Source: Aliiglaciecola sp. CAU 1673 (GTDB lineage: Bacteria; Pseudomonadota; Gammaproteobacteria; Enterobacterales; Alteromonadaceae). From it: 64,000 nucleotides of DNA. Location of the stretch: positions 62,001 to 126,000 of the forward strand of contig NZ_JARHUG010000001.1 in the NCBI RefSeq assembly GCF_029223185.1. The letters run 5' to 3'. Made by a program: the position numbers and the translations under genes. The notes under the pieces were generated by a model. That model was not told the DNA's origin. It did not search any database and worked only from the letters and a program-made list of their open reading frames with translations. Of the stretch, positions 42,574 to 47,623 are shown one piece after another (position 1 is the stretch's first letter; each line of letters opens with the position of its first letter).

Positions 42574-44580
42574 CTACAAACGATAATCCAACGACAGATA
42601 AACAGAGCGTGGAAGACCGACAAAATAGCGATACTGGCCAAAACCAATATCGGCACGTTCGGCATAGTCTGTATCCAACAGGTTCAGTACTCGAAGGCCG
42701 AACCGCCATTGGCGATCCAACGCGCAACTGGCGCGCAGATTAAGCACATCATGGCCTGGATAATCGGCACTATTTTGTGGGTCGAGGTAATAACGTCCCA
42801 TGTGCTGCCATTCCAGTTCGAGTTGTTTCCCGGTGGCCGGTTGCCAGTCCAGGCGCATATTCCACATTTGCCTGGGAGCAGTATCAATATCATTGCCTCG
42901 AATGCTCTCTTCGCCGAGGTTGAGATCGTTGGCATAACGGTGCTTGGCAAAGGTACCATCTGCGCTTAGCTGCCACTGCGCGTTTAGCGCCAGGGTAAAA
43001 CTCAATTCCAATCCGTGGTGGCGGGTTTGTCCGTTATCCACGTTTTGTCTGTCACTGTCCTGGAAAATATGGTTACGCTTATTCATGGCAAAGGCACTGA
43101 GATCCATATTCAGCGAGGCAAATTGCGCGCGCCAGCCAAGTTCAACGCTGTCCAGTTGTTCAGTGTCTAAGCTGGCCAGTACTTGTCCACTTTGCAATCG
43201 AAACAGTTCGCTGGTTTGTGGTGCCCGAAAGCCGCGGCTGAGATTGGCATACAGTTGGTCGCTGCTATCTAGATAGTGAACTACTCCCAGGCTGGGGGAG
43301 AGACTCTTGAAATCGGGTTTCTGGCTAACGGGCCGATAAAAACGGCATTTGCTGACTTCTGGCGCGCAAGCACTGCCTGCGGGCACCAAGGTTTGATAAT
43401 CGTATTGCTGATAGTCGTAACGCAGCGCTGCGTTGAGCTGCCATTGTTCTGAAGGTCGCCAGCGCAAACCGGCAAAAGGGGACAGATTGCGTGCAATTAC
43501 CTGATAGTCATAGTGGCTGCCCTTTGGCAATGCAGGACTAAAGGACTCGGCTTGGATCTCTTTCAACCAACCATCTGTCCATTCCATATCCATACCCGCT
43601 AACCAGGATATTGTGTTCGTAGCGCCAAATAATTGCGTCTGCAGTCCCGCACTTTTATGGCCGTTTTCTTCGGTTGGTTGCCAGGGCACAAAGTGTTGCA
43701 GAAAGGCCATACGCTGGGCCCGCAAAAAGGGGGTCATCTGTAGCGTAACGCCATTATCCATTTGATATTGGATATTGGACTGTGTGCGCCAGGACCACGC
43801 ATCCCGGTAGGCCTCAGGATTGGCATTCTGACGACGTAAGTTTTCGTCTTTATAGGTATCTTTTCCTTCAATGTAACCGGCCGTTTCCTGGTTCAGGTTA
43901 GTAAAGGACATCAGACTCTTTACCTGCCATTGGCCGCTATGCCAGCCATGCACCAGGTTCAATTTTTGCTGGTCGTAACCTGAATCTGCCTGATAACCGC
44001 CGTCATGAGCCAGATTGCCGTATACCAGGATTTGCTCGTTGCCCGCACTGAACTTGACCCTTGCATATTGATTGGGACCTCCCTCAAGAGCCAAAGATGC
44101 GGCGCCAGCATCTGGCAAATCGGGACTTAATATGTGGATGGTGCCATGCACTGCATTGGAGCCATATAATGCGCTGTGTGGGCCACGGAGCACCTCTATA
44201 GCGCCGGCCTGCTCAGTGTTCACTTCGAACAGTTGGTTGGCGTTGCAAAAACCACTGGAGCGGGTAGGAATGCCATCTTCCAGCACCAAAAATGCCCCGC
44301 ATGAACCGGCGCCGGTCAACACCGGGGAACGAATGGCCGTCAAATGTTCCTGACCGTTGCCGCGACTTACCCAAGCACCAGGGACTCTGGACAGGGTTTC
44401 GCTGATATGAATTTGACCAAGCAGGGACAGTTCTTCTTGCTCAAGGCGAGTCAGGCTGAGGGAAAGTTGCTCCTGCGGCTGTGACTGACGGCTGGCAGTG
44501 ACGCTGATGCGTTCTATTTCATTAGCATAAAGGGAGCTGGCGCTAAGCAGGGCGATCGAGGCCAAGAGTCTGAAAGTCAT
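42574..44580 (-). CDS. TonB-dependent receptor, probably iron-siderophore uptake
   Basis: 668 residues with a signal peptide (LLASIALLSASSLYA-NE) and a TonB box region (ERISVTASRQSQ). The plug carries GSCGAFLVLEDGIPTRSSGFCNANQLFEVN and IEVLRGPHSALYGSNAVHGTIHIL, and the barrel ends with VYLSLDYRL. The CGAF/GFCN cysteine pair in the plug is distinctive. Upstream at 44783-44801 is a strong Fur-box-like sequence overlapping a promoter, and the neighbouring gene on the other side is an iron permease, so an iron-complex substrate is likely. Which siderophore is not evident. Confidence 0.88.
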   Translation of the reverse strand: MTFRLLASIALLSASSLYANEIERISVTASRQSQPQEQLSLSLTRLEQEELSLLGQIHISETLSRVPGAWVSRGNGQEHLTAIRSPVLTGAGSCGAFLVLEDGIPTRSSGFCNANQLFEVNTEQAGAIEVLRGPHSALYGSNAVHGTIHILSPDLPDAGAASLALEGGPNQYARVKFSAGNEQILVYGNLAHDGGYQADSGYDQQKLNLVHGWHSGQWQVKSLMSFTNLNQETAGYIEGKDTYKDENLRRQNANPEAYRDAWSWRTQSNIQYQMDNGVTLQMTPFLRAQRMAFLQHFVPWQPTEENGHKSAGLQTQLFGATNTISWLAGMDMEWTDGWLKEIQAESFSPALPKGSHYDYQVIARNLSPFAGLRWRPSEQWQLNAALRYDYQQYDYQTLVPAGSACAPEVSKCRFYRPVSQKPDFKSLSPSLGVVHYLDSSDQLYANLSRGFRAPQTSELFRLQSGQVLASLDTEQLDSVELGWRAQFASLNMDLSAFAMNKRNHIFQDSDRQNVDNGQTRHHGLELSFTLALNAQWQLSADGTFAKHRYANDLNLGEESIRGNDIDTAPRQMWNMRLDWQPATGKQLELEWQHMGRYYLDPQNSADYPGHDVLNLRASCALDRQWRFGLRVLNLLDTDYAERADIGFGQYRYFVGLPRSVYLSLDYRL

Positions 44581-44676: not shown

Positions 44677-44708
44677 TAAAAAAGGGGCGGGCCACGGAGA
44701 GCCCGCCC
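44677..44708 (-). terminator. Strong intrinsic terminator upstream of the receptor (minus strand)
   Basis: Perfect eight-base-pair GC stem GGGCGGGC / GCCCGCCC with an eight-base loop; the adjoining A-run (44678-44683) is a U-run in the minus-strand RNA. It lies between the Fur-controlled promoter and the receptor start at 44580. Confidence 0.9.
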
Positions 44709-44769
44709 TAATACCAAACCTGTGGTTGGTAAGCCCAAAGAAGACCAGTAGACTCGGGCTGTAGTGCGA
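44678..44769 (-). ncRNA. Candidate Fur-regulated small RNA or attenuated leader
   Basis: From the inferred start near 44769, a transcript of about 92 bases would end at the terminator. It would contain a hairpin TACCAA / TTGGTA with an eight-base loop, and a longer AGCCC / GGGCT pairing before it. No open reading frame of note. Promoter, Fur box and terminator are arranged as in RyhB- or PrrF-type small RNAs, although no sequence similarity to them was seen. Alternatively it is the leader of the receptor 100 bases downstream, with conditional termination. Confidence 0.45.
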
Positions 44770-44774
44770 GAGTT

Positions 44775-44803
44775 AATTTAGTGCAAATGATAACTATTAT
44801 CAA
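44775..44803 (-). promoter_or_regulatory. Sigma-70 promoter with overlapping Fur box
   Basis: On the minus strand: -35 TTGATA (44803-44798), 17-base spacer, -10 TAAATT (44780-44775). The Fur-like site (44783-44801, top strand GCAAATGATAACTATTATC) matches the 19-base Fur consensus at 15 positions and covers the spacer and most of the -35. Iron-dependent repression is inferred. Confidence 0.75.
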
Positions 44804-44915: not shown

Positions 44916-45284
44916 CTACTTAGGTGCTATCAATACTTGGCCGCTCAGTGGTTTGCTGGACGGCACAGCGACGACATCCTTAATTTCAGTGCGCCCTGGG
45001 CTTACCATTAATCTCTCCAGCCTTGCCGCAATCATGTCTTGCCCGGCGTCGGCTGCAAAATAGGCCACCGGCTCGTCATTGCAATGCAGATTGCGGGCTA
45101 TGTAGGTCAGCTTATAGCCAGATTGATCGACAGCGGTGATAAAGCCAATAGTATTTTGGGTAACGGCGCTGACACAGAGTCGGCTGGCTACGGACTGATC
45201 GGCTGCTTCATAGGTGGCCGCCTGGGACATCAGGGGGGCAGCCATGAGTGTGGTGGCAATCGCCAAAGTACGGTAGTTGAACAT
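44916..45284 (-). CDS. DUF3718 family exported protein
   Basis: 122 residues with a signal peptide (LAIATTLMAAPLMSQAATY). Matches DUF3718, a small exported family of unknown function in marine gammaproteobacteria. It has two cysteines (RLCVSAV and LHCNDEPV) likely to pair as a disulfide. ATG 45284 follows GAGGGATTCATC. It is on the same strand as the iron receptor, but the Fur-box promoter lies between them, so it is probably a separate unit. Confidence 0.75.
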   Translation of the reverse strand: MFNYRTLAIATTLMAAPLMSQAATYEAADQSVASRLCVSAVTQNTIGFITAVDQSGYKLTYIARNLHCNDEPVAYFAADAGQDMIAARLERLMVSPGRTEIKDVVAVPSSKPLSGQVLIAPK

Positions 45285-45754: not shown

Positions 45755-47623
45755 ATGAACCGAGTCATCACCAAGCTGTTACTGATAGCCACGATGCTGC
45801 TGCCTATCGGATTACACGCCGCCCAGCAGGGGCCTGAACGTATTTTGCACCTGTTGGCGTATGTGGGGGTGGACTACCCAATGACCGTGGCTGACGGCAG
45901 AGTGGTGGATGAAGGGGAATATGCCGAACAGGTCGAGTTTGCAAGGGTTGCCGAAGAAATTCTGTTGCAGTTACCCAGGGTAGACACCAGCGATACCTTG
46001 TTAAATCAGATTAACACTCTGCAACTGGCTATTGCACAGAAGCAGCAGGGCAGCGATATCAAAGCGCTGACCGGTGAGATCAGTAAGACCCTTACCCAGG
46101 CCTACAACATCAAGCTCAGCCCCAGAAAGGCTCCCAGACCAGATTCAGTCGCTCAACTCTATCAGGCGCAATGCGCCATGTGCCACGGCAGCACCGGGCT
46201 AGGTGATGGTATTGCCGGGCAAGGCATGGAGCCGGCACCGGCAAACTTCCATGATCGCGAACGCATGAGCGAACTGAGTCTGTTTGGTTTATACAACACC
46301 ATCACCCTGGGTGTTGAAGGTACAGGTATGGCCTCTTATGCACAGTCGCTAAACGATGATCAGCGCTGGGCGTTAGCTGCTTTTGTGGCTGGTTATGTGA
46401 CCGATACCCCGGTTGATGCCGTGGCTTCTCCCTTTAGCCTGGATGAGTTGGCCACGATGACGCCTAATCAGGTTGCTGCTGATGGTCGCGATGTCGACGC
46501 ATTTGTGCAACTGCGTGCACACCCAGATCAAATCCTTTCATCCGGTCCAGACCCCTTGGCGTTTGCGCAAATGACATTGCAGAAGTCATGGCAGGCGGCT
46601 GAGGCTGGCGATCGGGAGTTAGCCTACGAGTTGTCCATCAATGCCTATCTGGAAGGCTTTGAATTGACTGAATCCGGCCTACGCAACCTCGATGCGCCGC
46701 TGACCAGGCATATTGAAAAATCCATGTTTGCCTACCGCGATGGTCTGCGCTCTGGATTACCACAAGCACAATTGGAGAGTCTCTATCAGGCCGCCATGCA
46801 AGGTCTGGAACAAGCGGCTCTGTCCTTGGGGCAAGGGGAGCTTTCTCCCTGGTTAAGTTTTGTCGCATCGCTGATTATTCTGCTTCGTGAAGGATTGGAA
46901 GCCATTTTGGTACTGGCGGCCATTTTTGCTTTCCTGAGTCGTGCTGGCGCTACACAAAGCCTGAAATACGTGCATGGCGGCTGGATGGCGGCCCTGGGGC
47001 TTGGTCTTGTCACCTGGCTGGTGGCGAGCTTTGTGTTAGATATCTCCGGTGCCAGTCGGGAAATTACCGAAGGGGTAGCGGCACTGGTGGCCATGGTGGT
47101 GCTGTTATGGGTCGGAATCTGGATGCATTCAAAGGCCCATGCCAATTCCTGGCAGGATTACATCAAGCAAAAACTCTCGGCCAGCCTTAGCTCTGGACAA
47201 AACTGGGGTTTTGCGTTGCTGGCCTTTATCGCCGTATATCGTGAGATCTTTGAGATTGTGCTTTTCTACCAAACACTTTGGTTGCAGGCTGGTGAAACCG
47301 GACATAGCGCAGTGTTGTGGGGGGTATTGGTCGCCCTGGTAGGGTTGGGGCTGCTCGGCTGGGCCATATTCAAAGCGGCAATGCGCTTGCCTGTAGCAGG
47401 CTTCTTTAAGGTCAATGCAGTGATTATGTTTGTGTTGGCATTGATATTTGCTGGTCGCGGTATCGCCGCATTGCAGGAAATGGGGGCGCTGGCAAGCAAA
47501 CCTCTGAATATGCCATCTGTTGAGTGGCTGGGTTTGTACGCCGACGGCATGACCCTGGCCACCCAAGGTGCCATCCTTGCGCTGATTGCCCTGATGGTGT
47601 GGCTGCAACGCAAACCGCAATAA
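45755..47623 (+). CDS. Cytochrome c / FTR1 fusion iron permease
   Basis: 622 residues. After a signal peptide, residues about 125-215 form a c-type cytochrome domain with one haem site (CAMCHGS) and an axial methionine candidate in GTGMASYA. A helical periplasmic segment follows. The C-terminal half (from about 360) is a seven-helix FTR1 permease with the two iron-binding REXXE motifs: REGLE in LIILLREGLEAILVLAAIFAF and REIFE in AVYREIFEIVLFY. It imports ferric iron after oxidation of ferrous iron; the attached cytochrome may pass electrons. Single gene, followed by REP copy 2. Confidence 0.92.
   Translation: MNRVITKLLLIATMLLPIGLHAAQQGPERILHLLAYVGVDYPMTVADGRVVDEGEYAEQVEFARVAEEILLQLPRVDTSDTLLNQINTLQLAIAQKQQGSDIKALTGEISKTLTQAYNIKLSPRKAPRPDSVAQLYQAQCAMCHGSTGLGDGIAGQGMEPAPANFHDRERMSELSLFGLYNTITLGVEGTGMASYAQSLNDDQRWALAAFVAGYVTDTPVDAVASPFSLDELATMTPNQVAADGRDVDAFVQLRAHPDQILSSGPDPLAFAQMTLQKSWQAAEAGDRELAYELSINAYLEGFELTESGLRNLDAPLTRHIEKSMFAYRDGLRSGLPQAQLESLYQAAMQGLEQAALSLGQGELSPWLSFVASLIILLREGLEAILVLAAIFAFLSRAGATQSLKYVHGGWMAALGLGLVTWLVASFVLDISGASREITEGVAALVAMVVLLWVGIWMHSKAHANSWQDYIKQKLSASLSSGQNWGFALLAFIAVYREIFEIVLFYQTLWLQAGETGHSAVLWGVLVALVGLGLLGWAIFKAAMRLPVAGFFKVNAVIMFVLALIFAGRGIAALQEMGALASKPLNMPSVEWLGLYADGMTLATQGAILALIALMVWLQRKPQ

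Follow-up and report, generated by a model that had tools for sequence, protein, structure and literature searches.

RyhB of the Enterobacterales, with a length near 90 nt and a terminator, is reported in Vibrio and Shewanella too, and dependence on Hfq is common, albeit not universal, among Fur-repressed iron-sparing small RNAs. RyhB is described as a Fur-repressed small RNA that lowers iron-containing proteins (PMC9410917, PMC8891985). In one account, prrF and ryhB have undergone duplication in certain species, IsrR of Staphylococcus is characterised as iron-sparing (narG among its targets, no RyhB orthologue), and IsrR, RyhB, PrrF, MrsI and FsrA are said to share targets without sharing sequence (PMC9410917). 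Family-restricted Fur-type RNAs have also been described, among them HrrF (Pasteurellaceae) and NrrF (Neisseria), the latter acting on sdhA and sdhC (PMC4144887). BrrF of Burkholderia cenocepacia, presented as a Fur-type RNA with no similarity to known ones, was predicted to pair with sdhC and was needed for the sdhC drop under iron depletion (PMC7377471).

Here, we describe a locus within a 64-kb stretch of DNA (the window; 64,000 nucleotides, whose genome is referred to as G000) for which our best reading, made from sequence, is a new small RNA family, to all appearance under Fur control and iron-sparing, that is distinct from RyhB and from all Rfam families tested. Since relatives carry the RNA gene in unrelated neighbourhoods, we consider it probably the Alteromonadaceae's own version of the iron-saving RyhB. 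The likeness to RyhB lies in Fur repression, the lowering of iron proteins and a size of about 90 nt with a terminator (all predicted on the side of the new RNA), while the difference lies in the lack of a sequence or model match and in a seed that sits in a hairpin loop. PrrF1/2 of Pseudomonas are likewise Fur-repressed iron-sparing RNAs, the role predicted here, and one relative (G001) similarly has two copies; in contrast to them, 12 member loci of the new family match no Rfam model up to E 1. BrrF, as far as its description goes, is encoded downstream of hemP and lacks a stem-loop at its terminal U residues, whereas the new RNA ends in a terminator hairpin and is found at a different site. 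HrrF and NrrF belong to other lineages and are set apart by description, not by alignment. IsrR, also compared by description, shares narG as a target (predicted here in three species) and differs in being Gram-positive.

Comparison with known RNA families

None of 4227 Rfam models placed the locus in a family (best match SorY, E 0.24, 18.8 bits against the 111 needed), and the whole window gave no match at the gathering cut-offs; with the member loci equally silent, a known Rfam family was rejected as its identity. The RyhB model (RF00057) exceeded its cut-off in 0 of 59 genomes of the family (three sub-threshold matches fell in other genera), gave no match up to E 0.01 in G000 and, at the locus, none even with the limit raised to E 10. 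The first-pass annotation had noted no primary-sequence match to RyhB, which the model search bears out, and had called the arrangement RyhB/PrrF-type, a label that holds for the predicted function and fails for sequence relation, of which none was found. The RNA is not named in the covered titles and abstracts on iron small RNAs of Alteromonadaceae or Bowmanella, a coverage outside which most subscription journals lie.

Organization of the locus

The features of the locus are collected in Table 1 (coordinates are positions in the window).

Table 1. Features of the putative small RNA gene and its neighbours in the 64-kb window
Feature	Position	Strand	Remarks
Fur box GCAAATGATAACTATTATC (+ strand letters)	44783..44801	.	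15/19 to GATAATGATAATCATTATC
-35 box TTGATA	44798..44803	-	promoter scan, alignment of relatives
-10 box TAAATT	44775..44780	-	17-bp spacer to -35
Putative small RNA gene, ~91 nt	44678..44768	-	5' end inferred from -10 box, 3' end from U run
Conserved 5' element GCACUAC	44761..44767	-	same in 9/9 close homologues
Hairpin 1, 8 bp in G000, presents seed loop	44732..44760	-	stem with compensatory changes
Predicted seed UACUGGUCUU	44741..44750	-	perfect complement of sdhC AAGACCAGTA, codons 4-8
Hairpin 2 ACCAA..UUGGU	44712..44731	-	fold
Intrinsic terminator	44678..44708	-	stem 44708-44685; C; U6 44683-44678
TonB-dependent receptor, 668 aa, neighbour, outside RNA gene	42574..44580	-	
DUF3718 protein, 122 aa, upstream neighbour	44916..45284	-	

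The Fur box claimed by the first-pass annotation to overlie the promoter was recovered and is the best match within the window, scored against GATAATGATAATCATTATC, which we take to be the consensus. Matches of at least 15 occurred 7 times in 4 Mb of first-order Markov sequence (both strands), or about 0.1 per 64 kb by chance. Upstream of the 10 scored units the best Fur-box matches reached 12-16 of 19, and the 30 more broadly sampled units (see below) behaved likewise. The promoter boxes, too, lie on the minus strand where they had been placed; their description as near-ideal did not survive scoring (only 9/12, with 8 promoter-like matches in the region against 7.8 expected from shuffles). As promoter-like matches stay at shuffle level, the promoter rests on conservation and not on its score: TAAATT with the 17-bp spacing recurs in two of the three Lacimicrobium units, the remaining one having TAAAGT. 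The GC-rich terminator, expected some 90 bases on, was found as a stem of nine pairs (eight of them G-C) followed by C and six U. Thus, as predicted from sequence, the locus combines two marks of Fur-repressed iron-sparing small RNAs, i.e. a Fur box covering a sigma-70-like promoter and an apparently autonomous gene with its own terminator.

RNA structure and covariation

The predicted RNA folds into three hairpins (-35.5 kcal/mol, z = -2.55). The conservation search with covariance analysis proposed by the first-pass annotation for 44678-44769 had a positive outcome: the unit is conserved as a block and its stems covary. Over 10 aligned homologues, 97.6% of cells are paired and 8 of 17 pairs changed on both sides, values that lean towards the model because the alignment was fitted to it; not one of 500 shuffles equalled the observed values on any of five measures, and every slid version of the structure (paired at 21-60%) did worse than the unslid one. 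Compensatory changes preserve the fold of hairpin 1, whose loop UACUGGUCUU stays conserved. In the nine close homologues GCACUAC, the loop GUYUACUGGUCUU and the terminator-loop YUCUCC are constant and the stems vary, and hairpin 2 has a counterpart in the three Lacimicrobium units and is missing from the other four Bowmanella units.

As a separate observation, pairing of the terminator-loop YUCUCC (9/9 close homologues; 44685-44708) with the Shine-Dalgarno letters GGAGA is conceivable, and letters resembling it occur in some units of genera g5 and g10 (L135, L139, L141, L145); this loop is a possible second pairing region.

Distribution within the Alteromonadaceae

A 251-base region compared with 59 relatives recovered, besides G000, one whole related unit (in G004) and two shorter matches (G004, G048) confined to the promoter and Fur-box part. 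By pattern search and by reading the stretches upstream of the relatives' receptors, we found the unit in each of the five genomes sampled from Bowmanella, the genus of the window, and in all three from its sister genus Lacimicrobium. Applied to 84,980 species, each represented by a single genome, the core pattern matched six contigs, belonging to Bowmanella dokdonensis, B. yangjiangensis, B. denitrificans, B. pacifica, Lacimicrobium sp. SS2-24 and L. alkaliphilum. Among 196 genomes of the family, a first exact pattern matched six, three of them real (G000, G001, G004) and three rejected as lying in coding-like sequence; a looser one gave 28 matches in 23 genomes, from which 16 matches in 11 genomes were kept and 12 rejected by eye.

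Two models of the full unit (R1 and R2) reach close homologues only. R1 matched 10 of the 196 family genomes, one of which (G088, E 0.0086) was dismissed as false on inspection by eye; new among the matches were G009, which belongs to another genus, and, in G001, a second and divergent copy. This second copy (L068:1500-1580) lies 3.6 kb upstream of the first, has its own Fur box and a different terminator, and of the conserved letters keeps GUUUACUGGUCU only. Across 394 genomes of the order (some of which belong to the family), R2 matched six, namely G000 and five judged false by eye, and a pattern matched nine, of which G000 and G080 are real and seven were judged chance by eye (one of these with a 14/19 Fur-like match); outside the family nothing convincing was found among them.

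A broader model of Fur box, promoter and hairpin 1 (R3, built from 12 sequences) returned 56 matches in 45 of the 196 family genomes at E <=0.05. After reading by eye we kept 30, distributed over 29 genomes and 11 of 52 genera, and rejected 26 (mostly Fur boxes in front of protein genes), so that 167 of the 196 genomes are without an accepted member. We stress that hairpin 1 is present in all 30 kept units partly by construction, because it entered the selection. The distant members were accepted on weak R3 scores (E 1.8e-5 to 0.018 per genome) together with reading by eye. Among these 18 units, a 5' UGCCUG was seen by eye in 15, GGUC occurs in or beside the hairpin-1 loop in all (on stems of varied sequence), and a terminator-like hairpin in most; they are likely, albeit not proven, to be homologous to the Bowmanella unit.

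Complementarity to sdhC

We chose sdhC as the target to test because known iron small RNAs (BrrF, NrrF) act on it. A gene with the Sdh_cyt domain, taken as sdhC, is present in all 15 carrier genomes searched (in G000 on contig 33, outside the window) and typically starts GTG AAA AAA CAA AGA CCA GTA AAT. The exposed loop UACUGGUCUU is perfectly complementary to codons 4-8 over 10-13 nt in 11 of the 15 genomes (13 nt in G009, 11 in seven genomes, and 10 in G000, G080 and G074), and over 6-7 nt in four more distant genera (G165 7, G187 7, G172 6, G064 6 nt; in G187 the reported run lies at the start codon, and GACCAGT is also 7). An exposed stretch complementary to an iron-enzyme mRNA near its start codon is a further mark of the iron-sparing class, which by sequence the loop shows over 10-13 nt in these 11 genomes and over only 6-7 nt in the other four. 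Shuffled loops equalled the observed length in <=0.7% of cases in the first 11 genomes and in 6-19% in the last four. Of 305 pooled control start regions, taken from frames of 150 codons or more, the longest complements were 8 or 9 nt and none equalled the observed length in the first 11 genomes; in the last four it was reached by 12 (G165), 12 (G187), 63 (G172) and 34 (G064).

By plain duplex energy, computed over stem and loop in 11 of the 15 genomes, sdhC did not stand out: of 342 controls, those as good numbered 16 in G000, 6 in G001, 18 in G004, 27 in G139, 0 in G009, 67 in G080, 17 in G074, 33 in G165, 187 in G187, 72 in G172 and 54 in G064. Conservation of the target alone is no evidence, since these codons are also constrained by the protein (KQRPVN). 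In a single case, G064 (genus g61), both sides changed in step, the RNA reading CGGGUC and sdhC GACCCG against CUGGUC and GACCAG in the other members.

We reason that the locus encodes a Fur-repressed, trans-acting, iron-sparing small RNA that pairs with sdhC through the loop of hairpin 1, a reading to which we assign a probability of roughly 0.83. With iron present, Fe-Fur would sit on the promoter and silence it; with iron absent, sigma-70 polymerase would make the RNA of about 91 nt, stopping at its own terminator. Hairpin 1 would then expose the loop, which, possibly with the aid of Hfq, would pair in the cell with codons 4-8 of the sdhC mRNA (and, in some species, with the 5' leader of the narG mRNA and that of a cytochrome c mRNA), and pairing would block translation or open the mRNA to decay, whereby iron would be saved. 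Such a molecule would be a candidate small RNA for a family in which none of the 59 genomes searched exceeded the RyhB cut-off, and would help in understanding iron limitation among these bacteria, most of which are marine. Its seed is exposed, its predicted main target is specified and 29 genomes carry it for comparison; it would also permit a direct test of how seeds follow their target.

The alternative that survives best accepts a real iron-regulated RNA and lets it act otherwise (as a protein-binding RNA, or on targets that do not include sdhC), the sdhC match then stemming from conserved codons. The weak match in 4 of the 15 genomes and the indecisive duplex energies agree with it, as does the conservation of the terminator loop and of the 5' GCACUAC, which have no known partner; set against the long perfect complement of an exposed loop in 11 of 15 genomes, reached by 0 of 305 controls, it appears unlikely to us.

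Other occurrences of the complementary 10-mer

The 10-mer AAGACCAGTA was searched in 11 carrier genomes, with all occurrences read in nine of them (those of G080 and G074 not in full). In the nine it occurs 97 times (9 in the RNA gene, 9 in sdhC and 79 elsewhere), and because a reversed 10-mer was even commoner (131 times), we regard most occurrences as chance. Ten of the 79 lie on the sense strand near a credible start (within ~50 bases before or 30 after), and seven of these ten precede narG (G001, G002 and G003, 35-36 bases upstream of the ATG), a cytochrome c gene (the same three genomes, 42 bases upstream) or a cytochrome b561 gene (G139, 23 bases upstream). In G112, another lies 24 bases upstream of a gene whose rubrerythrin-like match is weak, and the last two, in G003 and G004, fall at starts coding KKTS. 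Four sites were left uncounted because the small frames to which they stand at -56 to +39 overlie long antisense ones, and true later starts could be missed because frames began at the first start codon. The exact 10-mer was not found at narG or the cytochrome c gene in G000.

The 10-mer is also held by an element, AAC.TCGCTGATAAGACCAGTATTTT.CTGAGA, about 158 bases upstream of aroQ in all eight Bowmanella and Lacimicrobium genomes (L239, L287, L229, L246, L278, L267, L252, L262; aroQ domain confirmed for L262). It was set aside as a target, being far from the start codon and, in our impression, operator-like.

Gene neighbourhoods and the TonB-dependent receptor

The RNA gene lies between fumC and a gene for a MipA-like outer-membrane protein in G001 and G004 (in the latter with its own Fur box and terminator, fumC being divergent), between an ilvE-like gene for a class IV aminotransferase and that MipA-like gene in G002 and G003, and between divergent rplM-rpsI and a tetrapyrrole-methylase-type gene in G139, G112 and G078 (domains assigned by Pfam from one copy each; fumC from G004, the MipA orthologue from G002). 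Among the Bowmanella and Lacimicrobium genomes compared and G009, it abuts the TonB-dependent receptor in G000 only, where the receptor ATG (44580) follows on the same strand 97 bases past the U run. The first-pass annotation had an iron receptor starting 100 bases after the terminator; the distance agrees, while the iron specificity is at most putative, as the protein has TonB plug and barrel domains and stays below the cut-off of all 23 NCBIfam models that it touched, which leaves it with no substrate assigned. Other genes intervene in all seven close relatives, where the receptor orthologue is found on the same strand 4.5-9.4 kb further downstream, and in G009 the two are ~374 kb apart on one contig.

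A dual function in G000, whereby a leaky terminator of the autonomous small RNA gene would put the receptor under Fur through the small RNA promoter, is suggested by the adjacency on one strand and by a scan that found no sigma-70-like promoter between RNA gene and receptor in the window; the adjacency, however, is confined to one genome and the terminator is strong, which makes it improbable. Broader, and likewise tentative, is the picture of a new iron-sparing family spread through a large part of the Alteromonadaceae, in which seed loop and sdhC start region evolved together (strict pairing of 10-13 nt in one branch, the double change in g61) and whose G000 copy maybe brings the TonB receptor under Fur by leaky termination.

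The small-RNA reading and the receptor-leader reading between which the first-pass annotation had hesitated fared differently. An attenuated leader, with a Fur promoter serving the receptor and conditional read-through of the terminator, would account for the short distance in G000, for the missing intervening promoter and for RNA gene and receptor sharing one strand within 10 kb in all eight Bowmanella and Lacimicrobium genomes. Yet a fixed position before the regulated gene was found in 0 of the 7 close relatives, and within 220 bases upstream of the start codons used (misplaced in the case of G004) no Fur box of at least 13/19 precedes any of 8 receptor genes. Moreover, the best-conserved parts are the terminator and the loop complementary to sdhC, and in a fold of 44768-44560 the terminator was kept with the downstream sequence, an anti-terminator not being favoured. 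The leader was hence rejected on synteny and is very unlikely; as judged from its conservation in other neighbourhoods, its compensating stems and its sdhC-complementary loop, the unit is a stand-alone small RNA gene. That Fur box, promoter-like sequence and terminator came together by chance with no RNA gene between them, as promoter matches at shuffle level might suggest, is scarcely credible given that 29 of 196 family genomes repeat this order together with the loop and that the stems of the close set covary.

Additional observations

In several genera of the Alteromonadaceae, a small protein of the form M..xFLCPxHRxW is encoded directly behind Fur-box-like sites (L004:1577-2017, L142, L152-L156, L159; variant in L169); Pfam gives no match for the L004 copy, which stands beside a ferritin-like (Dps-type) gene. 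Within the window itself, positions 45755-47623 (+) encode an FTR1/EfeU-type iron permease and an N-terminal cytochrome c domain in one protein.
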